This document shows, in pieces, positions 3,321 to 38,146 of a stretch of 64,000 bases of DNA. The translations under genes were made by a program, and so were the position numbers. The notes under the pieces were generated by a model. It searched no databases. It had not been told where the DNA came from and worked only from the letters and a program-made list of their open reading frames with translations. Positions within the stretch are counted from its first letter, which is position 1, and each line of letters begins with the position of its first letter. This DNA is from Neobacillus sp. DY30 (GTDB lineage: Bacteria; Bacillota; Bacilli; Bacillales; Cytobacillaceae): the NCBI RefSeq assembly GCF_030123065.1, contig NZ_CP126093.1:4470001-4534000 (forward strand). Direction: 5' to 3'.

Positions 3321-3830
3321 TTATTGATCATACTTCTTTACCATTGTATATAATTGAGCTGCTGTAACTGGACCATTGTAATGCTCCCTTATAACACCTT
3401 TTCTATCAATGACAAAGGTTTCCGGCTGTCCTGTAACATTATATTTTTTAGCAATTTTAGAATTGTAGTCAAAGACATAAACAGCAGGTGTATTGTATTT
3501 TTCTAGGAATTTTTTAACTCGGTCCTTTGTTTCACCCTTGTTAATCATGATTAATCGGTATTGATCACCGTAATCTTTTGCAAATGCCTCAAGCTCTGGA
3601 GCCTCATCCACACAAGGTTTACACCATGAAGCAAAATAATTCAGGATGATGATTTCACCTTTGTAATCGGAAAGCTTCGTATTTGTTCCATCTAAGTTTG
3701 GCAGTTCAAAATTATAGGCTTGGTCCCCGACATCAGTGTTATCACCTTTGCTCGCCAAACTATATCCAAAAAAGCCAAACATTCCAATTAAAAGAAACAA
3801 CACGAGTAGGTTAATGACTCGTCTGCTCAT
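3321..3830 (-). CDS. CcmG/ResA-like membrane-anchored thioredoxin
   Basis: A signal anchor (about residues 6-24) precedes a TlpA-type thioredoxin domain with the redox motif WCKPC (NYFASWCKPCVDE) and the cis-Pro region GQPETFVID. Such proteins reduce the CxxCH cysteines of apocytochrome c outside the membrane before heme attachment. As the last gene of the ccm operon it is probably the CcmG/DsbE equivalent, though by sequence ResA is equally close. The start is the ATG 6 nt after AGGAGG; a GTG 18 nt upstream would put that site inside the gene. Confidence 0.88.
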   Translation of the reverse strand: MSRRVINLLVLFLLIGMFGFFGYSLASKGDNTDVGDQAYNFELPNLDGTNTKLSDYKGEIIILNYFASWCKPCVDEAPELEAFAKDYGDQYRLIMINKGETKDRVKKFLEKYNTPAVYVFDYNSKIAKKYNVTGQPETFVIDRKGVIREHYNGPVTAAQLYTMVKKYDQ

Positions 3831-3906
3831 TCTGGTTCCTCCTGACACCGATAAGTAGTTTTGTAGAAATGGCCTGTTCTGTATAAACAGGCCCTTTTTA
3901 CTTTTT

Positions 3907-4032
3907 CTACCTATCTAATTGTTTTAAAAACTCGATGTCTTTTTTAAGGCTATTATGACGTTTTCCAATCAAAAGCATATAACCAAAAATAATTACCCAA
4001 ACAACTGAATAAGCTGCATACATAAATCCCAT
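3907..4032 (-). CDS. ccmD: Small heme-export subunit CcmD
   Basis: A 41-codon gene, MGFMYAAYSVVWVIIFGYML followed by a basic tail (KRHNSLKKDIEFLKQLDR). One membrane helix near the N-terminus with a charged cytoplasmic tail, and the position directly after ccmC, are diagnostic of CcmD. This subunit helps release holo-CcmE from the CcmABC transporter. Its ribosome site GGAGG overlaps the region just after the ccmC stop codon, so translation is probably coupled. Confidence 0.88.
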   Translation of the reverse strand: MGFMYAAYSVVWVIIFGYMLLIGKRHNSLKKDIEFLKQLDR

Positions 4033-4044
4033 GATTAATTCCTC

Positions 4045-4806
4045 CTAGTTTTCCATTCTTTCACGTAATTTCTCTTTGTAGTGACCAACTTTTATTTTCA
4101 TATTTTCTAGTGATACTCCCTTATGCAGGAGATACGCATATAGGAAGGTAAATGCGGCAATCGCAACTAATAACGCAACAAGCATACTAGGTGCAATTCC
4201 CCCTCCTTGTTGAGAAGGACCTTCTCCAAAAACGATTGGATGGAATTTTGATTGCCACCAGCGAATCGCAAAAAATACAATTGGAACATCTGCAAACCCG
4301 ATAATCCCGAAAACTGCAGCAAGTCTTGCTTTTTTATCCCAAACCCCATCCATTTGGCGGACCATAAGATAAGCCATATAAAGGAAGAAAAGAATCAAAG
4401 TTGTAGTCAATCGTGGTTCCCATGCCCACCATGTATTCCAAGAAGATTTCGCCCAAATTGGACCAGTTGTTAGTACGATAGCTGTAAAAACTACCCCTAT
4501 TTCGGCAGATACATATGCATAGGTGTCGTATATTCTTTTACGTTTTATTAAAAATAAAATACTAAAAACAAATGTCACGAAGAAGGCTAAGAATGCTACC
4601 CATGCTGATGGAACATGCATATAAAATATCTTTTGTACGGCACCCATTGTTTTTTCAATCTCGGCATACATGAAAATAAAGTAGAATGCTGCTAACATTG
4701 AAACTACCATACTGCCATATAATAATTTGGTAAGCAAAGGGCTTTTTACCGGGGCCAGTTCTGCCATTGGAAGAGGCGCCTTTTCTCTTTCAAGATTCAT
4801 ACTCAT
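4045..4806 (-). CDS. ccmC: Heme exporter protein CcmC
   Basis: CcmC is a six-helix membrane protein that loads heme onto CcmE on the outer face of the membrane. The tryptophan-rich WWD signature is present as SSWNTWWAWEPRLT, flanked by the conserved external histidines (FYMHVPSAW and a later RWWQSKFHPIVF). The product has 253 residues, normal for the family. The start ATG is 8 nt after GGAGG. It lies 3 nt downstream of ccmB. Confidence 0.95.
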   Translation of the reverse strand: MSMNLEREKAPLPMAELAPVKSPLLTKLLYGSMVVSMLAAFYFIFMYAEIEKTMGAVQKIFYMHVPSAWVAFLAFFVTFVFSILFLIKRKRIYDTYAYVSAEIGVVFTAIVLTTGPIWAKSSWNTWWAWEPRLTTTLILFFLYMAYLMVRQMDGVWDKKARLAAVFGIIGFADVPIVFFAIRWWQSKFHPIVFGEGPSQQGGGIAPSMLVALLVAIAAFTFLYAYLLHKGVSLENMKIKVGHYKEKLRERMEN

Positions 4807-4809
4807 ATC

Positions 4810-5484
4810 TTAAACCTCCAGAACATACTCAATTAGTAAAAAACAAAGAACAAAGAAAATTACATCATAGGCTGCGACCAATTGCATCCAAGAGATAGCA
4901 GTCGGTAATTTTTCCATATTGGTTAGAATAATTTTTGTTGCTTGTGTAACACCAATCAACACAGGACTTGTCATAGGGAAAAGCAAAAGCGGTAATAACA
5001 TTTCACTGCTCTTTGAATTGGATGCAAGTGCTGCTAGGAAAGTTCCAATTGCAATAAATCCAAAACTACCGACGAATAAAACAAATATAAAATAGAGAAT
5101 GCTGCCAGTGATTTTAAAATCAAATAATAGAAAGAGAAAGGGTATGGATACAATTTCTACTATTAATATCATTGAGAAATTTGCCAAGAATTTACCTAAA
5201 TAAATGCTAGAAGCATCCATTGGCGCCACGAGTAAGCCATGCATCGTATCATTCCGCTGCTCTGATACTAACGAGCGATTTAGCCCCAATATCCCTGAAA
5301 AGACTATGATAATCCAGACAGCACCGGGAATAACTGCTTTTGTTGTATTGTTTGCTGGGTCAAAAGCAAAGCTTAATACTAAGATTACTAAACCAGCAAA
5401 AATAATCATTGTCCCCAAAACTTGTTTTGTTCTTAATTCTGAATAAATATCTTTTTTTGCTATCGTGAAGGCTGTTCTTAACAT
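4810..5484 (-). CDS. ccmB: Heme exporter membrane subunit CcmB
   Basis: The 224-residue product has six predicted membrane helices and the CcmB feature KKDIYSELRTKQ at the start, then SEQRNDTMHGLL before the third helix. CcmB is the permease of the CcmA2BCD complex, whose ATP hydrolysis frees heme-loaded CcmE. Its ATG shares a base with the ccmA stop codon and lies 7 nt after GAGGGGG; a TTG one codon upstream is less likely. Confidence 0.93.
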   Translation of the reverse strand: MLRTAFTIAKKDIYSELRTKQVLGTMIIFAGLVILVLSFAFDPANNTTKAVIPGAVWIIIVFSGILGLNRSLVSEQRNDTMHGLLVAPMDASSIYLGKFLANFSMILIVEIVSIPFLFLLFDFKITGSILYFIFVLFVGSFGFIAIGTFLAALASNSKSSEMLLPLLLFPMTSPVLIGVTQATKIILTNMEKLPTAISWMQLVAAYDVIFFVLCFLLIEYVLEV

Positions 5485-6188
5485 CAAGAAACCCCCTCTA
5501 CCAAAATCTGATATTTTTCAGAAACTAAACTTAGTGATTTATTATTTATTCTAAAGTCATCAGCAATCTTGCCATTTTTTACTATGATAATACGATCACA
5601 TATTGCCGCGGCCTGTTTGAAGTCATGAGTTACCATTAAGGTGGTGCACCCTTTCTCTTTCATAGAAAGGACTACATTATTTAAAATAGTAATGGCACCT
5701 TGATCCAAACCAGTATGTGGTTCATCTAGCAGCATAATTTTCGGTTCATGAATGATGGCTCGAGCAATCGCAATTCTTTGGATCATCCCGCGTGAAAAAT
5801 TCTTTACAGGCTCATGGATAAAGAATGACAAGCCTACCTCATTTACAAGTTTTCTGGCTCTGCTTTCAACATCCTTTACACCATATAAGCTGCCAAAAAA
5901 AACCAAGTTTTCTAACGGCGTGTAATGATCATATAACAAGCTGGAATGCGGCAAGTAACCAAACATTTTTTTTACTTCAATATGATCCTTTTTTAAATCC
6001 AAACCGTTAATCTTTACAAGGCCGGATGTAGGCTTAATTAATGTTGCCAGCACTTTTAGAAGTGTGCTTTTTCCAGCACCATTTGGGCCAAGTATAGCCA
6101 CAGTTTCGCCTTGAGTAATTGATAGGTCAATACCTCTTAGTATTAACTTATTGTCGGCTTGCTTTGTAAGCTTTTTAATTTCAATCAT
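5484..6188 (-). CDS. ccmA: Heme exporter ATP-binding subunit CcmA
   Basis: An ABC ATPase of 234 residues. Walker A is GPNGAGKS, the signature is the degenerate FSRGMIQR in place of LSGGQ, Walker B is IMLLDEP and the switch histidine is VTHD. CcmA powers release of holo-CcmE from CcmC. The assignment as CcmA rests on the adjoining ccmB, ccmC and ccmD, since the domain alone is generic. Confidence 0.92.
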   Translation of the reverse strand: MIEIKKLTKQADNKLILRGIDLSITQGETVAILGPNGAGKSTLLKVLATLIKPTSGLVKINGLDLKKDHIEVKKMFGYLPHSSLLYDHYTPLENLVFFGSLYGVKDVESRARKLVNEVGLSFFIHEPVKNFSRGMIQRIAIARAIIHEPKIMLLDEPHTGLDQGAITILNNVVLSMKEKGCTTLMVTHDFKQAAAICDRIIIVKNGKIADDFRINNKSLSLVSEKYQILVEGVS

Positions 6189-6212
6189 TAGGTATCCCTC
6201 ACATTCCGACCG

Positions 6213-7208
6213 CTACTCTACAAATTGGCGTAAATTCATTTTTACTTGTACTAAATGCTGTTTATACGCAGCCAATTTTGCTTGATAATCCTCTTCTGTC
6301 ATATTTCCCTCACCGTAGATTTCTTCTAATTCGAGGATTTTATCCAAAATAGCTTTTTGCTTTGCCATAAGGTTTTTAAATGCTGATTCTTCCTTATCCG
6401 CTCCAAGCCTCTTTTCTTCTGCCATTGCCTTCATTCTAAAATAGGCAAAATAGGACAATGCTGCGATAATAATTGCACTCATTACAATCAAGAAAACATG
6501 CGGATCCCAGCTGCGCAATGGTGATTGTGACCACATTCGCAGGTGACCGGGATTATGGAAAGCTGGTGCTGTTTTGGTTACATTCCCGTCTGTTGCACTT
6601 ACTCCTTGCATGTTAGAAGTTTGTGTTTCACTTGGAGACGGTTGTTTCCCTTTATCGTAGACCATCGTAAAAGATTGTTGTGCTTGAATCCCTTCAACAC
6701 TGTAACCTTGATAATTTTGATCATCCATTTTGAACAAACCTTGATTCGTTGCTGTAACATTCTTAAATTCAATGCTTCCCATTCCCTCAGGAACAAGAAT
6801 TTGTATCATTTGAACAGGGTAGTCAAAGGTTAAACTAATTTCTTTGTCTTTGGCCACTCTATAGCTATATGGTAAAACGACAGTCTGATTGGCCGGAATA
6901 GGATCTGTAGTAATAAACCCGCTATCAACTTGTTTTTGAGCAATTTTGTTATCTAAGAAGGTAAATCCTATTGCTCCTTTCGGGATAGTGACATTCAAAA
7001 TTGCTTCACCCGTGCCGTCACCTTTAAATTCTTCAGCGGTTGTATTGGTATAGTTCACCATGTTCATCAGATTGGTGGAACCATCTTCTGCAGGGCTGAC
7101 GACGAGATAATGCATATCAACTGATATCGCTGAATCTGCGGCTGCCAATCCATGGATAGGGATGAGCAGCAGCAGCCCGAGAAGGAAAACGGTGATTCTC
7201 TTAATCAC
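6213..7208 (-). CDS. Unfamiliar membrane protein of the ccm operon
   Basis: I do not recognise this family. The 331-residue product has a signal peptide (cleavage near AAAD), an exported region of about 190 residues predicted to be beta-rich (VNYTNTTAEEF, DNKIAQKQVDSG), a low-complexity linker, one membrane helix near residues 240-260 and a cytoplasmic coiled coil ending ILELEEIYGEGNMTEEDYQAKL. That tail resembles the short helical hairpin of CcmI-type proteins. It starts with GTG inside the overlap GTGA with the previous gene, so it is translated as part of the operon. A role in holding apocytochrome or heme at the membrane is only inferred from position. Confidence 0.75.
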   Translation of the reverse strand: MIKRITVFLLGLLLLIPIHGLAAADSAISVDMHYLVVSPAEDGSTNLMNMVNYTNTTAEEFKGDGTGEAILNVTIPKGAIGFTFLDNKIAQKQVDSGFITTDPIPANQTVVLPYSYRVAKDKEISLTFDYPVQMIQILVPEGMGSIEFKNVTATNQGLFKMDDQNYQGYSVEGIQAQQSFTMVYDKGKQPSPSETQTSNMQGVSATDGNVTKTAPAFHNPGHLRMWSQSPLRSWDPHVFLIVMSAIIIAALSYFAYFRMKAMAEEKRLGADKEESAFKNLMAKQKAILDKILELEEIYGEGNMTEEDYQAKLAAYKQHLVQVKMNLRQFVE

Positions 7209-7582
7209 TTTCCTTCCCCCTTTTTATTCTGATAATTCTTCATTGAAGCTTCAATTTCACTTTCTATTTCAGCCATTAAATCTTTGTCGACTGTCTGAGA
7301 TAGCATTTGTTCTTCTTCATCCTTCATAATGCTGACAACTTGTGCTTCATATTGTTTCTTGAGATTTTTATAATCTGCGTGGGAGATTTTATCCATTTTG
7401 TATTCAAACTCTAACTCATTGAGAGTGGATAAAAGCATTTCTTTGTTTGATGCAGAATCTTGCCCCTTGTTCGCGAAACTTAAATATGAATCCCAAGAAA
7501 AGAAAGGAGCTAGAACGAGAAATAAACAAATGAGCACTAGAGCAGCGGTGAATATCATTGAAATGATCGAAATTTCTTGCAT
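7205..7582 (-). CDS. CcmI-like membrane protein
   Basis: A 125-residue protein with one N-terminal membrane helix (about residues 5-26) and a cytoplasmic helical region containing LNELEFEYKMDKISHADYKN. This matches the N-terminal pattern of CcmI/CycH, where a helical hairpin follows the first membrane segment; the tetratricopeptide half of proteobacterial CcmI is absent. CcmI presents apocytochrome c to the CcmF-CcmH ligase. The ATG at 7582 follows AGGAT at proper distance; a GTG at 7591 would overlap that site. Confidence 0.7.
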   Translation of the reverse strand: MQEISIISMIFTAALVLICLFLVLAPFFSWDSYLSFANKGQDSASNKEMLLSTLNELEFEYKMDKISHADYKNLKKQYEAQVVSIMKDEEEQMLSQTVDKDLMAEIESEIEASMKNYQNKKGEGK

Positions 7583-7594
7583 TATGTTCACATC

Positions 7595-8098
7595 CTAAAG
7601 ATACTTTTTGCGTTCTTCTTCAATCATAGATGAGAGGATTTCCTCTTCCACTTCATCCTTATCGCTTTCGTTGTCTGGGGTTTGTTCTCCTGTTCCCTTT
7701 TTCTTCACCCATTTACGAATGATGAAGAATATCGCTATCCCTGCAAGTGCTAATACTACAAATGGAAGTACCCAGGCTACTAAACTGAATCCACTTTTTT
7801 CTGGGGCGGTCAAAATTTCTTCTCCGTAAATATTAACGTAGTATTCACGAATTTTGTCCTTATCCCAGCCCTTGTTCATCATTTCAACAATGTCTTCCTT
7901 AAAGCCAACTGTTAGATTACAAGTTTTAGGGTCACATTCAAAATGATCCTGTCCACAGCCGCATGTACACATAAATTGAGATGCGGCTGCTTCAAATTCC
8001 TTAGATTTATAGTCAAACTCTTTCGCTTGTACTTGGAAGATAGAAGCATGGAAAATAAATGCAATCAAAAGGAGTCCTATATAAATTTTACTTTTCAT
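7595..8098 (-). CDS. ccmH: CcmH-like thiol protein with CxCGC motif
   Basis: A signal peptide (about residues 1-25), a short exported helical domain and a C-terminal membrane helix (VAWVLPFVVLALAGIAIFFII) with an acidic tail give the layout of CcmH. CcmH keeps the apocytochrome thiols reduced and hands them to the CcmF ligase. The usual LRCxxC motif is replaced by FMCTCGCGQDHFECDPKTC, with five cysteines. The start is the ATG 7 nt after GAGGTG, which overlaps the end of ccmF by almost nothing. Whether the extra cysteines change the chemistry is unknown. Confidence 0.85.
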   Translation of the reverse strand: MKSKIYIGLLLIAFIFHASIFQVQAKEFDYKSKEFEAAASQFMCTCGCGQDHFECDPKTCNLTVGFKEDIVEMMNKGWDKDKIREYYVNIYGEEILTAPEKSGFSLVAWVLPFVVLALAGIAIFFIIRKWVKKKGTGEQTPDNESDKDEVEEEILSSMIEEERKKYL

Positions 8099-8099
8099 A

Positions 8100-10082
8100 T
8101 TAAGACACCTCTTTGCGTACTCCTGTGTATCGTGGAGTAATATTTTGATATTTTCCGTTCCATACTGCAAATAGCGATCCGATAACAATCATGAAAGATC
8201 CAATCCAAAGCCATGCAATCATTGGGTTAACTTTTACGATAAAGGTTGCTTTCCCATCATTTTCCCAATCACTTAAGACAACATATAAATCTTCTTTTAA
8301 AGATGAGATGAGGCCAACTTCTGATGATGGCTGATCCCAGTTACCGTAAAATACTTTTTCAGGCATAATATTTCCAATTCGTTTGCCATCTTTAAAAACT
8401 ATCATTTCTGCATAAACGATATCATTAATCCCTTCTCGTTTTTGATCAAGGCGCTCGTAGTTAATTCGATAATCCTTCACTTCGATGGAATCTCCTAGAT
8501 TCACAGTCTTCATTGTTTGCACATCATAGTTATGTGAACCAATAATACCCATTGCGATAAAAGCGATCCCAATATGAACAATATACCCCCCATAACGTCG
8601 ACGGTTTTTGGTCATTAAACGATAAAGAGACAGATAAATTTTTTCGTTTGTCATTTTTCTTCTAGCTTTTACTCCGCGGTAAAACTCTAGGAAGTGTGTA
8701 ATAAATAGCAGTACAATAACACCGAATCCAATTACTGCCCACGCTTTTTGTATTCCTAGTACAATCATCAAAGCCATTGCAACAACCGCAAGGATTGCTG
8801 GTATTAAGAAATTTTTCTTTAAATTCTTTAATGATGACCTTTGCCATGCAAGTAATGGACATACAGCCATTACAAACATCATCGATAATAAAATAGGTGC
8901 TTGAACGGTATTAAAGAACGGCATACCTACTGTTACTTTTGTACCTCGTACTGCTTCAGATACTAACGGAAAAACTGTGCCCCAGAATACACCAAAGGCT
9001 GCTCCCACTAACAATAGGTTATTTATTAAGAAACTGCTTTCTTTTGAAATGTATGAATTGAATTCTCCAGCACTGCGTTTTAGGAGGTTATATCGACTCA
9101 TTAACACATATAAGGCACCAATTACTGCTACACCCATGAAAATTAAGAAATATAAACCTAGATTTGAATTGGCAAATGCGTGTACGGATGTAAGGACACC
9201 GCTTCGAACAAGGAACGTTCCGAATAATGTTAAGGCATAAGAAGTGATGATTAGACTTATATTCCAAATCTTCAACATGTTTTTCCGTTCTTGGATCATA
9301 ACCGAGTGCAAGAACGCAGTTGCTGTTAGCCAAGGCATAAAGGAAGCATTTTCTACCGGATCCCAAGCCCAGTAACCGCCCCAGCCCAGCTCTACATATG
9401 CCCATTGCCCGCCGAAAATGTTTCCAAGACTTAGAAATAACCAAGCGATGATTGTCCAGCGTCTGGTCATCTTGATCCAAAAATCGTCCACGTTTTTCAA
9501 TAGAAGTGCCGCCATTGCAAATGCAAATGGGATAGCAAGACCCACATACCCAAGGTAAAGTGTAACTGGATGAATAATCATTCCTGGATTTTGCAGCATT
9601 GGGTTTAAACCATGACCTTCAATAGGTACCTCATCCAATAGGACGAACGGTTTCGCAACAAACCCAAGGATTAAGAAGAAAAATACGATATTTCCTAAAA
9701 GAATAGCGGAAATATACGGAACCATTGGATTCCCTCTCATTTTTCTAGAGAAGGCAACCATTACGGTGTAAAGGACTAAGAAGAATGTCCATAATAACAA
9801 GGAACCGGAATTCCCAGCCCATAAAGCTGTTAGCTTGTAAATAATCGGCAGCTCACTGCTCGTATAATCAGTTACGTATTCATATTGAAATTGAGATGTA
9901 GCAAGCAAGTAGAATAAGGAAAGCATGGCCATTGAGGCACAGACTAAGATTCCAATGATCCCGCCCTTACCACTGTTAATTAATCTTTGGTTTTTCGTGC
10001 TAATCCCCAATGTGATAATGAGGAGTGAATAGATAGCAAGCGCTAAGCCTACATAGATTGTTGCATTAGCAAATAAGTACAT
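8100..10082 (-). CDS. ccmF: Cytochrome c heme lyase subunit CcmF
   Basis: CcmF is the multi-helix membrane ligase that transfers heme from CcmE to the CxxCH motif. The 660-residue product shows the WWD domain ELGWGGYWAWDPVENASFMPW preceded and followed by conserved histidines (GHGLNPMLQNPGMIIHPVTL, HSVMIQE), then a large external loop (KTVNLGDSIEVKDYRINYE) and a last membrane helix. Length is normal. The ATG follows AGAAGGTGA. It lies between ccmE and ccmH as in many System I clusters. Confidence 0.96.
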   Translation of the reverse strand: MYLFANATIYVGLALAIYSLLIITLGISTKNQRLINSGKGGIIGILVCASMAMLSLFYLLATSQFQYEYVTDYTSSELPIIYKLTALWAGNSGSLLLWTFFLVLYTVMVAFSRKMRGNPMVPYISAILLGNIVFFFLILGFVAKPFVLLDEVPIEGHGLNPMLQNPGMIIHPVTLYLGYVGLAIPFAFAMAALLLKNVDDFWIKMTRRWTIIAWLFLSLGNIFGGQWAYVELGWGGYWAWDPVENASFMPWLTATAFLHSVMIQERKNMLKIWNISLIITSYALTLFGTFLVRSGVLTSVHAFANSNLGLYFLIFMGVAVIGALYVLMSRYNLLKRSAGEFNSYISKESSFLINNLLLVGAAFGVFWGTVFPLVSEAVRGTKVTVGMPFFNTVQAPILLSMMFVMAVCPLLAWQRSSLKNLKKNFLIPAILAVVAMALMIVLGIQKAWAVIGFGVIVLLFITHFLEFYRGVKARRKMTNEKIYLSLYRLMTKNRRRYGGYIVHIGIAFIAMGIIGSHNYDVQTMKTVNLGDSIEVKDYRINYERLDQKREGINDIVYAEMIVFKDGKRIGNIMPEKVFYGNWDQPSSEVGLISSLKEDLYVVLSDWENDGKATFIVKVNPMIAWLWIGSFMIVIGSLFAVWNGKYQNITPRYTGVRKEVS

Positions 10083-10094
10083 ATCGTCACCTTC

Positions 10095-10562
10095 TTATTG
10101 TTTTGCCTCATCGGTTTCTGTTGGTGGCTGATCTAATAATTTTTTATGTGCTTCAGGATCATAGTTTTCAATATCTTCACCCTCGTATTTAGAAGGACAT
10201 CTTGTTTTTACCGTTTCTGCAACAAATGTATCTTTCTTGGTTGGTGAACCCTGTAAAATAACAATTACACCTTCTGAGAAGTTATCAGGTCTTGTGCCAT
10301 TATGAATGACATGCATTAAATTACCTTCGTTATCCTTTAAATCAAACTTTAATTCAATTTTATCTGGGTTCCATTTAATAGATTCCTCGATTAGCAGGCC
10401 TTCAACAGTTACAAAATCATCTTTATGCTTTTCCTGGTTTGCCAAAAGTTCTTTCATGGTTAATTCAATTCCGCTGGATCCAGGTGTAGCTGCCATAAGC
10501 AAGAAAACAATTGCCCCCGCAATTATGAAACCACCTAACATAACAATCGTGTTCTTTTTCAT
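10095..10562 (-). CDS. ccmE: Heme chaperone CcmE with Cys heme-binding motif
   Basis: An N-terminal membrane anchor (about residues 8-27) precedes an OB-fold domain (VTVEGLLIEESIKWNPDKIELKFDL, VIHNGTRPDNF, VIVILQGS). CcmE carries heme covalently to the CcmF ligase. The heme attachment motif of proteobacteria is HxxxY; here it is CPSKY, that is CxxxY, the mark of the System I* type known from Desulfovibrio and archaea. The ATG at 10562 is 6 nt after GGGGTG. The tail after the motif is acidic and flexible, as usual. Confidence 0.93.
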   Translation of the reverse strand: MKKNTIVMLGGFIIAGAIVFLLMAATPGSSGIELTMKELLANQEKHKDDFVTVEGLLIEESIKWNPDKIELKFDLKDNEGNLMHVIHNGTRPDNFSEGVIVILQGSPTKKDTFVAETVKTRCPSKYEGEDIENYDPEAHKKLLDQPPTETDEAKQ

Positions 10563-10575
10563 CCCATTCACCCCA

Positions 10576-11649
10576 TTAAATTAATTTTTTCATTTCCTCA
10601 TCGTACGTTTCTTGGTCAATCTTTCCAGTTAAAAGCTTTTTACGTAATTCCTTCTTCTCATCAACGCTTATTGATTTATTTTCTTTTTTGACATGTTGCT
10701 TTTTAGGGTGACTGTTTACAGTTTTAGAACTTGAAGCTTTAGGTGCAGACTGTGATCTTCCCTTTAGTCCTAAGTAAACAAACACACCAGCAATGATGAT
10801 TGCGATACCAATTACGCTGGCACCGCCAATACCAATTAGTGGTCGATTGCCTTCTGATCCGCCTGATCCGCCTGAGCTATTTGATCCCCCGGTAATTTGG
10901 TCTGTTGCAGTTCCATTAACACCTGCATGGTTTTCGTCATTAGGAGGTTGTTTCTCATTAATTGCTTCTAAAGTTGATTTGAAACCATCTTTTTGATAGG
11001 CAAAAGAATATGTATAGCTTTCTCCTGCTTTCACATCTTTGTATTGATAGTAGAACAACTCTTCACCATACTCACTCTTTGTATTGTTTGGAGCCTTTGG
11101 CTCTAGTGTGATTTTTTTGGCTTCCATTGGGGCATAGAAAATGACGTCCAATGTACCAATTTCAGCAGGGTTACGATATTCAAAAGTAAAGCTTCTATTA
11201 TCCTTTACTTCTACTGAGCTGGTATAGTACTCGACTACGAATCTATATGAATCACCATTCTTGATTGGCTTGGAAGGTTTCCATGACATCGTTCCCTTAT
11301 CCTTATCCACATCAAATGGACGTTGAACTTCTGGCTTATTGTCCTCAGGGAATTCTGCAACTAAATAAGCTTGGAATCCTTTTTCATTTGCAGGCACTGC
11401 AATTTCAATTTTTCCATCAAAATCCTGCCCGCTTTTGTTTGTAAATGTGCCGTATTGTCCTATAAGTAAAGATGGTGTGTCTTTCGGCCAGTTCTCAGGG
11501 TAGTCAAACTCAGGCATAACCTGGATTTGCATTTCCGTATACGGGAATTTTTCTGGTTGAAAGGTAGTCTCGGCATATGCATTTGGAACGATAAAACTTA
11601 CTAAAAATGACGTGATAATAAATAAAGCCATCAATTTTTCTTTAAACAT
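10576..11649 (-). CDS. Unfamiliar exported membrane protein, first ccm operon gene
   Basis: I do not recognise this family. The 357-residue product has a signal peptide ending near AYAE, an exported domain of roughly 200 residues with aromatic and proline-rich strands (PEFDYPENWPKDTPSLL), a Ser/Gly linker, a membrane helix (IGGASVIGIAIIIAGVFVYLGL) and a basic cytoplasmic tail. The tail ends in ELRKKLLTGKIDQETYDEEM, a short-helix (SHOCT-like) motif. The architecture parallels the protein encoded downstream in the same operon at 6213-7208. The ATG follows AAGGAGGA by 6 nt. Confidence 0.72.
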   Translation of the reverse strand: MFKEKLMALFIITSFLVSFIVPNAYAETTFQPEKFPYTEMQIQVMPEFDYPENWPKDTPSLLIGQYGTFTNKSGQDFDGKIEIAVPANEKGFQAYLVAEFPEDNKPEVQRPFDVDKDKGTMSWKPSKPIKNGDSYRFVVEYYTSSVEVKDNRSFTFEYRNPAEIGTLDVIFYAPMEAKKITLEPKAPNNTKSEYGEELFYYQYKDVKAGESYTYSFAYQKDGFKSTLEAINEKQPPNDENHAGVNGTATDQITGGSNSSGGSGGSEGNRPLIGIGGASVIGIAIIIAGVFVYLGLKGRSQSAPKASSSKTVNSHPKKQHVKKENKSISVDEKKELRKKLLTGKIDQETYDEEMKKLI

Positions 11650-11960: not shown

Positions 11961-11993
11961 GAACCTTGAGACCATTCGCTGGTTTCAAGGTTC
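11961..11993 (-). terminator. Terminator of the diheme cytochrome operon
   Basis: GAACCTTGAGACCA pairs with TGGTTTCAAGGTTC across a 5-nt loop, and eight T follow on the minus strand. The stem overlaps the last codons of the cytochrome gene. It separates that transcript from the ccm operon. Confidence 0.9.
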
Positions 11994-12668
11994 AAGATAA
12001 TTATTTTGAATTTTTTCAGGTTGTTTAATGGTTCGGATATAACTAACAATATCAGTTATTTCATCTTCAGTAAGCTGTCTTACTCCGTCAAGACCTTTTA
12101 GTGATGGAGCCATCCTTGTACCCTCACGTCCATAAGCAGTAGCAATCCAAATCTGCTTGTCTGCGGTGTATTTCAAGTACTGTGGATTTGATAGGGCTGT
12201 CCCCATTTTTAATTTCCCTGCACCAGCTTCACCATGACAGTTAATACAATATACATTATATAGTTTCTCGCCGTTAACAACATCACCGGCAATTGTCTGT
12301 GGAACATCAAACTCAATCTCCTCAGACTGCCAATTCCTTATAAAGGCAACAACATTATTTAAATCCTCATTAGACATTCTCTTTTCGTAGCTAGGCATGC
12401 CAGTTCCTTCTCTGCCATATTTAACACTATTGAATATATCTTTATTACTTACAGAATTTAAATAGTTTTGATTATTTATTGCTGTACCGGCATTTTTTCC
12501 TTCCCCTTTGCCAGTTTCACCATGACAAATCAGGCACTGCTTGTTATAGATCTTTTCACCGGCAGCAATTGATTCCTTATTTTCATCGTTAAAAATATCA
12601 CTATTTACAATACAGATAAGAATCCCAATAATGATTATCGTGTAAAGGCCATATAATAGTTTTTTCAT
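11985..12668 (-). CDS. Membrane-anchored diheme cytochrome c
   Basis: An N-terminal uncleaved helix (about residues 6-23) is followed by two class I cytochrome c domains with heme motifs CLICH and CINCH, and distal methionine candidates in the related stretches GREGTGMPSYE and GREGTRMAPSL. Each domain ends with the usual C-terminal helix (NNVVAFIRN, TDIVSYIRT). It would carry electrons on the outer face of the membrane, and it needs the neighbouring Ccm system for heme attachment. Its ribosome site AAGGG overlaps the stop codon of the preceding PCYCGC gene, so the two are probably translationally coupled. Confidence 0.92.
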   Translation of the reverse strand: MKKLLYGLYTIIIIGILICIVNSDIFNDENKESIAAGEKIYNKQCLICHGETGKGEGKNAGTAINNQNYLNSVSNKDIFNSVKYGREGTGMPSYEKRMSNEDLNNVVAFIRNWQSEEIEFDVPQTIAGDVVNGEKLYNVYCINCHGEAGAGKLKMGTALSNPQYLKYTADKQIWIATAYGREGTRMAPSLKGLDGVRQLTEDEITDIVSYIRTIKQPEKIQNNYLEP

Positions 12669-12678
12669 TGGTTATCCC

Positions 12679-13128
12679 TTACTTAGGTTCTGGTGTCGGA
12701 GTTGGCTCCCCAAAATCTTGATATTTGGTAGTAATTAAGTCATATATTTTCTTAGGGCTTTTACCGTCAAGATGCATCTCTACCGCCTCCCGGGCGATAT
12801 CTATACAGACGTCTCAGGATATACTCATTGAATCCCAGCCGGTAACGGCCTTATCATCTCCAAATGAATCAATATAACAATCCAAATTACTTTCATGTCC
12901 ATCTTGTGCATAACAGCCGCAATAGCAAGGTACACCTGCTACAACCTCTGGATAGTTTGATACCATTGCATATGTTTCTTGAATTAAATCAGAAGAATTT
13001 AAAACATAATCTGGCAGTGGCAGATGTTTTTTATCTAAAGTTACATTTATCTCTTTAGAACTGCCGCAGGCTGCAACTAATAGACCGATAGCAGTACAGA
13101 GAAACAAGAGAGATAGAATTTTTTTCAT
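12679..13128 (-). CDS. PCYCGC-motif lipoprotein, candidate selenoprotein with in-frame UGA
   Basis: The N-terminus has a lipobox (LVAACGSS), so the protein is anchored outside the membrane. The family motif is present as VPCYCGCYAQDGHESNLDCY. After WDSMSIS the frame meets TGA at 12814-12816 and then stays open for 44 codons that still look like the family: DVCIDIAREAVEMHLDGKSP and a PTPTPEPK tail. In relatives I recall, this place reads CGVCLDIA, so the UGA replaces a conserved Cys and makes U-x-x-C. With UGA read as selenocysteine the product has 149 residues; otherwise it stops after 104. The next gene's ribosome site overlaps the distal TAA. Function of the family is unknown; a thiol or metal role is inferred. 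A plain nonsense mutation is the alternative. Confidence 0.72.
12781..12799 (-). promoter_or_regulatory. Candidate bacterial SECIS hairpin
   Basis: Starting 14 nt after the in-frame UGA, UAUCGCC pairs with GGCGGUA (7 bp with one G-U) around the loop CGGGA. The loop begins 22 nt after the UGA and has G at its second position, which agrees with the published bSECIS pattern as I know it. The codons here (GCC CGG GAG GCG) are strikingly GC-rich for this genome. Confidence 0.55.
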
Positions 13129-13271
13129 TTCTGTGTCACCCCTTTTGTTTATATGTTGTAATTCTACTTTATATTAACAAAAACTAATCATATGAATTGA
13201 AAGTAAATATTACTATTTAGTGAAGTTTTCGCAATAGGGAAAGAAAAAACTTTTTTTCATGTTTATAAAAA

Positions 13272-13304
13272 AAACTAAGACCGTAAAAAAACCGGTCTTA
13301 GTTT
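13272..13304 (-). terminator. Terminator of efp
   Basis: AAACTAAGACCG pairs with CGGTCTTAGTTT, followed on the minus strand by a run of T. It closes the papA-efp operon just upstream of the PCYCGC gene. Confidence 0.88.
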
Positions 13305-13314
13305 AATGAGTTAA

Positions 13315-13872
13315 TTATGCACGAGAAACATAGGAAGCTTCTGTAGTATTAATAATTAATTTATCTCCTTGGTTAACGAAGAATGGCACTTGAACATTAA
13401 GCCCAGTTTCAAGAGTAGCTGACTTAGTGCCGCCTGATGAAGTATCACCTTTAATTCCTGGCTCTGTTTCAGCAACTTCTAGGACAACAGTGTTTGGCAG
13501 TTCCACACCAAGTGTTTCATGTCCGAACATCATGATATGAACTTCCATGTTTTCTTTTAAGAACTTTAATTCATATTCAATATTGCTTGCAGGAAGCTCT
13601 ACTTGTTCATAAGATTCCATATCCATGAACACATGCTGATCACCGCTGGCATATAGATATTGCATTTTACGGTTATCTATTTGCGCTTTTTCAACTTTTT
13701 CACCTGCACGGAATGTTTTCTCCTGGATTGCTCCATTACGAAGGTTACGAAGCTTTGAACGAACAAATGCTGCGCCTTTCCCTGGTTTTACGTGCTGGAA
13801 ATCAAGAACGCGCCAAAGCCCGCCGTCCACTTCAATTGTTAGACCTGTTTTAAAATCATTAACAGAAATCAT
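13315..13872 (-). CDS. efp: Elongation factor P
   Basis: EF-P enters stalled ribosomes and helps form peptide bonds at consecutive prolines. The 185-residue product shows the N-terminal KOW-like domain ([21 protein letters not shown]) with the loop Lys at position 32 in [13 protein letters not shown], which is the modified residue in B. subtilis, then two OB domains ending [21 protein letters not shown]. It lies 20 nt after papA, the arrangement normal for Bacillus. Confidence 0.98.
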
Positions 13873-37828: not shown

Positions 37829-37980
37829 CACCTGAAAGTTTACCTAATCTCGGCTTTCCCCTTTGGTGGCTGCTCTTTTTAGTCAGCACTCTCCAGAGCT
37901 GCGTCAAACAAGAGTTCTTTTGCCTGAGAGATTCACACATTGTGCTTGCTCCTTCGGCGCTACATTTGTAGTCTCTCCCC
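37829..37980 (-). promoter_or_regulatory. Tandem glycine riboswitch
   Basis: On the minus strand, two glycine aptamers follow each other. The first has GCGCCGAAGGAGCAA and TCTCTCAGGCAAAAGA; the second has TCTGGAGAGTGC, CACCAAAGGGG and AAACTTTCAGGT. These are the conserved gcvT-motif elements. Glycine switches on the gcvT-gcvPA-gcvPB operon through the terminator that follows. Confidence 0.93.
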
Positions 37981-38146
37981 TTGTCATCATCCGCATTATA
38001 ATATTTTCACATTCGGGTCATACTAAAATATACATCTGAAAAAAATTTATTTTATTGAAATAGTTAAAACATTCAAATCTATTACCATCCTACCATTAAA
38101 GCATAAGGTGAGCAATAAATTTTTGTGCATTAAGGAGCTGAAAAAC

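Follow-up and report, generated by a model that had tools for sequence, protein, structure and literature searches.

A PCYCGC-family lipoprotein of Neobacillus with a predicted selenocysteine, encoded beside a diheme cytochrome c gene and a System I cytochrome c maturation cluster

We analysed a stretch of 64,000 nucleotides (the window, below) from Neobacillus sp. DY30, a soil relative of Bacillus, and found on its minus strand a gene that, judged from its sequence, almost certainly encodes a selenoprotein of the PF13798 (PCYCGC/OS_HP4) family. That the product is both a selenoprotein and part of a redox system of the cell surface is, when the two are taken jointly, very likely on the same kind of evidence. 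Its most likely job in the window's branch of the family, which we propose tentatively, is to assist the maturation of cytochrome c as a thiol/selenol oxidoreductase of the cell surface. The open reading frame, the conserved UGA, the hairpin that follows it, the selenocysteine machinery, the lipobox and the gene neighbourhood were all computed directly. PF13798 is already known as a selenoprotein family; what is apparently undescribed is a large lipoprotein branch across the Bacilli, part of which stands beside a diheme cytochrome c gene and a System I Ccm cluster, and which is remotely like CcmH.

Results

A reading frame that continues through UGA

Translation of the minus strand gave one open reading frame with a single in-frame TGA, reading ...SMSIS-U-DVCIDIAREAVEM...PTPTPEPK* from just before the predicted selenocysteine to the end; read by the ordinary code, the protein would end at 104 residues. 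An earlier sequence-only reading of this DNA had held that the frame passes the UGA without a frameshift and runs on to a TAA, and the single minus-strand frame of 149 codons (13128..12679) bears this out. That reading gave no strand, and frame 1 of the plus strand over 12679-13128 contains several stops. With Cys substituted for Sec, the window protein matched PF13798 at 99.3 bits over residues 37-148 (cut-off 25). It contains one CxxC-type site only, and a loose lipobox pattern like its own was present in 135 of 137 distinct homologues. The family motif at this site had been given as C-G-V-C; this form does occur among the Cys homologues, but C-G-T-C, C-D-T-C and C-D-V-C occur there also. 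The features of the gene and its surroundings are collected in Table 1.

Table 1. Features of the predicted selenoprotein gene and its neighbourhood in the window
Feature	Position	Strand	Basis or comment
Predicted PCYCGC-family (PF13798) selenoprotein lipoprotein gene	12679..13128	−	149 codons, ATG at 13128, TAA at 12681-12679; translation with TGA = U
In-frame UGA, codon 105 of 149, predicted selenocysteine	12814..12816	−	Minus-strand translation; TGA in 114/137 distinct homologues
U-D-V-C (UxxC) redox-type motif, residues 105-108	12805..12816	−	Both columns invariant as Cys/Sec in 52 aligned sequences
PCYCGC motif, residues 67-72	12913..12930	−	Translation and alignment
Putative lipoprotein signal peptide; lipobox LVAAC, Cys21	13066..13128	−	Read from sequence
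Predicted SECIS hairpin	12782..12798	−	Stem AUCGCC/GGCGGU, 5-nt loop CGGGA; stem starts 15 nt after last UGA base
Ribosome-binding-site-like run AAAGGGGTG	13138-13146	−	9 nt before ATG of the selenoprotein gene
Terminator-like hairpin with U-run, between efp and the selenoprotein gene	13272..13304	−	z −6.18
Elongation factor P (efp)	13315-13872		Flanks the selenoprotein gene on the side opposite the cytochrome
Diheme cytochrome c, probable co-transcribed partner	11985..12668	−	Pfam Cytochrome_CBB3 and Cytochrom_C; starts 10 nt downstream
Terminator-like hairpin with U8, end of cytochrome gene	11961..11993	−	z −5.09
CcmE	10095..10571	−	Pfam
CcmF	8100..10082	−	Pfam
CcmH, remote look-alike of the selenoprotein	7595..8188	−	PF03918; profile comparison
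ABC ATPase taken as CcmA	5484-6188	−	Assigned from domain and position
CcmB	4810-5487	−	Named by Pfam
Cytochrom_C_asm protein taken as CcmC	4045-4806	−	Assigned from domain and position
Thioredoxin-like protein taken as CcmG/ResA	3321-3848	−	Assigned from domain and position

The UGA is conserved and exchanges with cysteine codons

In 193 genomes of the same taxonomic family, PF13798 matches were found in 112, and 138 distinct open reading frames bearing the motif were extracted, one of which (L157, broken before the site) was excluded to leave 137. The site codon of these was TGA in 114, TGT in 16 and TGC in 7. The alignment of homologues with a count of UGA against Cys, which had been named earlier as a check, thus returned many homologues with UGA, in the wider class sample too. 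By sequence type the homologues fell into clade 1 (95 Sec and 10 Cys forms), clade 2, with MG[F/L]GU at the site (19 Sec), and clade 3, with HGT[R/K]C (13 Cys). Counted by genome, the Sec form was present in 92 of the 193, five of which also carried a Cys form, and 18 genomes had Cys forms only; in the remaining two of the 112 genomes the match was degenerate (G029) or fragmentary (G075). Because TGA stands at this codon in 92 genomes, a sequencing error is unlikely, and we ruled it out on the strength of the 114 TGA homologues, the covarying hairpin and the constraint on the tail, the last two of which are described below.

The closest six among the named relatives of the window protein, 93 to 98% identical to it, came from Neobacillus niacini or Bacillus sp. 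Plasmid matches comprised 17 records, every one below 60% identity and 12 of them from Priestia, and phages gave no match. Adjacent pairs of Sec-form PCYCGC genes were seen at nine loci (L041, L047, L048, L049, L070, L071, L078, L097 and L121), in genus g8 and also in a single genome from the same genus as the window.

A class-wide sample of 398 genomes gave PF13798 matches in 162. When 28 genomes with low-scoring matches were re-searched and the site was read, it was Sec in 18, representing 10 families other than the window's, and Cys in 7; in the other three (G332, G464 and G505) the motif pattern did not locate it. Together with G000 and G025 this made 20 Sec-form genomes among the matches listed, a count that omits further matches in G203, G258, G273, G306, G317, G350, G371 and G483. 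The best matches of the rest of the 162 genomes, among those listed, had no in-frame stop. One candidate, L291 in G412, had appeared to be a UGA form in a genome without a listed selA match and was rejected; its site reads Cys, the TGA lies after the site, and the gene is broken. Such a broken Cys-form copy is a decoy for automatic selenoprotein calling. A tree of 202 short rows, poorly resolved, implied at least eight changes of label between Sec and Cys, two of which were forced by well-supported branches.

A covarying hairpin accompanies the Sec forms

A guanosine within a small apical loop is common in bacterial SECIS elements, as given in the available text of PMC1088965, and the five-nucleotide loop of the window's hairpin, CGGGA, is likewise small and contains G. 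Among 102 distinct Sec-form regions the loop was CGGGA in 69 and CGUGA in 33. The five inner pairs of the stem were standard in all 102, and all six pairs were complete in 75 of these against none of 23 Cys forms. When each region was compared with synonymous recodings that keep the protein, the Sec forms folded with a mean z of −1.89, 59 of 102 lying in the best 5%, as against a mean z of +0.17 and 0 of 23 for the Cys forms. Of the cells in 67 dereplicated Sec rows, 95.0% were paired and 15 cells were double-changed, with covariation that none of 500 shuffles equalled; sliding the partner strand by one to three columns lowered pairing to 30-59%. A Bacilli-wide set of 36 rows (19 from other families of the class and 17 of the 67, chosen for diversity) gave 93.1% paired cells, 32 double-changed cells and a covariation of 0.509 against 0.171, again with 0 of 500 shuffles as high, while the count of further pair types, taken alone, was matched by 48 of 500 shuffles.

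By itself the hairpin of the window is unremarkable (extended fold −18.2 kcal/mol, z −1.67); the case draws its strength from comparison and not from the window's own fold. Rfam at gathering level reported nothing at the hairpin, its sole match of that level within the window being a glycine riboswitch aptamer at 37902-37990 on the minus strand (70.4 bits). The SECIS-like hairpin of the formate dehydrogenase gene in the same genome has a GGUCU loop, unlike CGGGA and CGUGA, and the best hairpin of selD differs again.

The genome encodes the machinery for selenocysteine

The presence of sel genes elsewhere in the genome had been named as a further check, and selA, selB, selD and tRNA-Sec were all found in the window's genome (6.14 Mb in a single contig). 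selA scored 566.5 bits, selB 354.2 bits (over the cut-off) and selD 403.5 bits, selD itself having one in-frame TGA (...STKAGUGCK); tRNA-Sec scored 63.3 bits against a gathering score of 47 and was given the anticodon tca by ARAGORN. The gene for a formate dehydrogenase alpha subunit (L342, G000:C1:4092635-4094656) also reads through an in-frame TGA (...NRTUHAPSVAG). Since both SelD and formate dehydrogenase contain an in-frame UGA, this codon very probably specifies selenocysteine elsewhere in the window's genome. There is a second, more distant formate dehydrogenase alpha match (L347, G000:C1:6011325-6012077) with one in-frame TGA, a candidate site.

Within the taxonomic family selA was over the cut-off in 172 of 193 genomes, comprising 91 of the 92 Sec-form genomes and 81 of the 101 others (Fisher 1e-5, relatedness uncorrected). 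In the class sample it was over the cut-off in 86 of 398 genomes: all 20 Sec-form genomes read and 66 of 378 others (Fisher 7e-15, relatedness again uncorrected). All 18 Cys-only genomes of the family keep selA, and because Cys forms occur in genomes that retain it, selenocysteine is not essential. In one of the 92 UGA-form genomes, G171, neither selA nor tRNA-Sec was over the cut-off, and the frame and hairpin of its Sec-form gene (L080) were intact; contamination or a recent loss of the selenocysteine system could possibly account for this exception. The earlier assignment of selenocysteine to this UGA is strongly supported by the machinery and the TGA homologues, all of it evidence at the level of sequence.

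Codons beyond the UGA are constrained as protein

In 94 clade-1 Sec forms (365 pairs), pN/pS was 0.336 over the 38 codons 3' of the UGA, as compared with 0.310 over a stretch of 38 codons that precedes PCYCGC. Restricted to codons 13-38 downstream of the UGA, the ratio was 0.424 (1150 pairs). The proline/threonine tail was kept in 113 of 114 Sec open reading frames. We concluded that protein-level constraint acts about as strongly on codons after the UGA as on those before it. That the UGA is instead an ordinary stop, the product being a lipoprotein of 104 residues and the 44 downstream codons a relic, is extremely improbable: in its favour, G171 has the UGA form with neither selA nor tRNA-Sec over the cut-off, but the downstream codons are constrained like the upstream ones, the frame of the tail is kept almost throughout, the Sec-specific hairpin covaries, and the Cys forms read through the same position, so that with the TGA/Cys codon counts we regard this explanation as ruled out.

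Remote likeness to CcmH

A likeness of the protein to CcmH was noted before any structure was predicted. An AlphaFold2 model built from 52 homologues (pLDDT 89.8) has a broken helix at residues 47-64, a long stretch containing PCYCGC, C84 and a small beta hairpin, the Sec beside a helix at 106-120, and a last helix at 125-139. CcmH is described, in the available text of PMC3884852, as a bundle of three helices in which the loop joining helices 1 and 2 carries the redox site, with the motif LRCPKC; the task ascribed to it is the reduction of apocytochrome c. The top two matches of the model in a Foldseek search of the PDB were both CcmH, with E values of 0.82 and 1.1 that are not significant alone, and VIA-align to two CcmH structures gave Z scores of 4.4 and 3.7, which are too low alone, an unrelated row also reaching 3.7. 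Searching solved structures by sequence gave no credible match (best E 0.34).

Comparison of the PCYCGC profile with a CcmH profile, the latter made of 14 sequences from these bacteria and one from E. coli (15 in all), gave a probability of 91.7 and an E value of 7.9e-7 for this single comparison. As a control, 25 other clusters of neighbouring open reading frames, some of which may not be genes, gave a best E of 0.0015 and a probability of 16.6; the 26th such cluster was the PCYCGC protein itself and stood outside the control set. BLASTP of the window protein against the window's CcmH gave an E value of 0.092. For Pfam CcmH (PF03918) no match to the window protein was listed at E values up to 1, in a program whose filters drop many weak matches.

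The selenoprotein may resemble CcmH (PF03918) in its predicted order of a helix, a long redox loop and two helices; it shares CxCGC with a further Cys, and is weakly similar in profile and fold. It differs in that its sequence lacks LRCxxC, in having no Pfam CcmH match, in a predicted lipid anchor that replaces the transmembrane helix, and in the presence of Sec, which in the profile comparison aligns to a Cys outside the LRCxxC motif. We did not file the selenoprotein as a CcmH, since it has neither the Pfam match nor LRCxxC. The window's own CcmH, of the Bacillus type, has CTCGC and a second Cys pair, CDPKTC, instead of LRCxxC, yet matches PF03918.

Gene neighbourhood

As one terminator-like hairpin precedes the selenoprotein gene and a second closes the cytochrome gene, the two genes probably form one transcript, and since the second hairpin lies between the cytochrome and the Ccm genes, the pair may be an operon of its own. 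A consensus scan for terminators and promoters found no more than shuffles give and reported neither of these hairpins. The bacterium is a Gram-positive relative of Bacillus, and the minus strand of the window at 3321-10571 seems to encode a complete System I set for cytochrome c maturation; two long proteins without Pfam matches (6213-7208 and 10576-11649) are interspersed in it.

A homologue of the diheme cytochrome lies downstream of the PCYCGC gene at 64 of 85 clade-1 sites, at a median distance of 14 nt. Neighbours in wide flanks were counted for 122 of the 137 sites: CcmE was within about 5 kb of 59 of 92 clade-1 Sec sites and 7 of 9 clade-1 Cys sites, and none of cytochrome c, CcmE, CcmF and CcmH was found within about 5 kb of 17 clade-2 Sec sites or 4 clade-3 Cys sites. 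The earlier suggestion that the protein is a surface-anchored partner of the adjoining cytochrome genes is plausible in view of the lipobox, the cytochrome gene immediately downstream and the recurrence of this arrangement in clade 1. The Sec-form gene of G171 has ResA-like and CcdA-like neighbours, along with several rhodanese-like open reading frames. A general link of the family to ResA and CcdA was considered and dropped, such genes being present at 3 and 1 of the 122 sites, respectively.

Discussion

We propose that SelB and Sec-tRNA, guided by the hairpin just past the UGA, would insert selenocysteine at codon 105, and that translation would then continue to the TAA. The product would be exported and anchored by lipid to the membrane's outer face. 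There the U-x-x-C pair and the C-x-C-x-C motif may together form a thiol/selenol-disulfide active site. In the window's branch the protein may act as a CcmH-like oxidoreductase during System I maturation, reducing the cysteines by which c-type cytochromes bind haem or holding on to them, and its foremost substrate would presumably be the neighbouring diheme cytochrome c. We favour an oxidoreductase for cytochrome c maturation because of the structural model, the profile likeness to CcmH and the role ascribed to CcmH; the cytochrome and CcmE genes that recur near clade-1 sites also speak for it.

Two other roles for the same selenoprotein were weighed. It might handle metals or metalloids at the surface, by binding or reducing them, and have nothing to do with cytochrome c. 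The CxCxC motif would suit such a role, as would the surroundings of the clade-2 Sec forms, which lie by genes for heavy-metal P-type ATPases (10 of 17) and ArsR-type regulators (10 of 17), and such an ATPase was also within about 5 kb of 15 of 92 clade-1 Sec sites; but the window's branch mostly sits with cytochrome and Ccm genes, U-x-x-C is a motif of the redox type, and the resemblance to CcmH points away from metals, so that we consider metal handling unlikely. Alternatively, the protein might be a redox enzyme or might donate electrons, with the mature diheme cytochrome c as its partner; a reductase of peroxide or of selenium or sulfur compounds would be one example. The cytochrome gene follows closely (10 nt away in the window; a median of 14 nt over 64 clade-1 sites) and terminator-like hairpins flank the pair, both of which speak for this role. 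In part of the family, however, no cytochrome gene lies within about 5 kb, and there was no significant match to a solved reductase by sequence or by fold, which is weak evidence; we judge this role to be unlikely as well.

OS_HP4 is reportedly a discovery of Zhang and Gladyshev in 2007. The table of a 2026 review, in the text available to us (PMC13188914), lists a 'CYCXC family protein (hypothetical protein OS_HP4), PF13798, UxxC', a table in PMC9312934 likewise gives OS_HP4 with UxxC in its available part, and NCBIfam model NF041379 is named 'CYCXC family (seleno)protein'; the sequence-only reading was therefore wrong in stating that no selenoprotein of this family had been described. A Parageobacillus lipoprotein with PCYCGC is described in PMC13068155, whose available text makes no mention of selenium. 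NF041379 matched all 52 aligned members with E values no higher than 0.001, the lowest being 1.5e-23, and the window protein scored 67.7 bits against it, below the equivalog cut-off of 90.

The window protein and OS_HP4 (NF041379) have the same Pfam family according to the available part of the review table, the UxxC type and a CYCxC motif upstream; they differ in that the model spans 90 positions and the Bacilli lipoproteins about 149 residues, a comparison made through the table entry and the model only. The Cys-form PCYCGC lipoproteins of Bacillales share the family, the cysteine pattern and the lipobox with the window protein and differ in having Cys for Sec and in their want of the complete six-pair hairpin (0/23), and at the four clade-3 sites examined they are, unlike the window, without cytochrome and Ccm neighbours. 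Among the matches listed in a literature search, whose coverage mostly excludes subscription papers, we found neither a description of the Bacilli lipoprotein branch nor a link between selenium and cytochrome c maturation.

The UGA form is present in 92 of 193 genomes of one family and in 18 genomes of 10 other families of the class, and the repeated exchange of Sec and Cys offers a natural experiment on the benefit that selenocysteine brings. More broadly, and as a doubtful extension of our reading, the Bacilli may have a widespread Sec-containing, lipid-anchored, CcmH-like oxidoreductase for the maturation or redox proofreading of cytochrome c, so that haem attachment would be partly dependent on selenium. 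If the link to cytochromes is true, the supply of selenium would feed directly into cytochrome c assembly.
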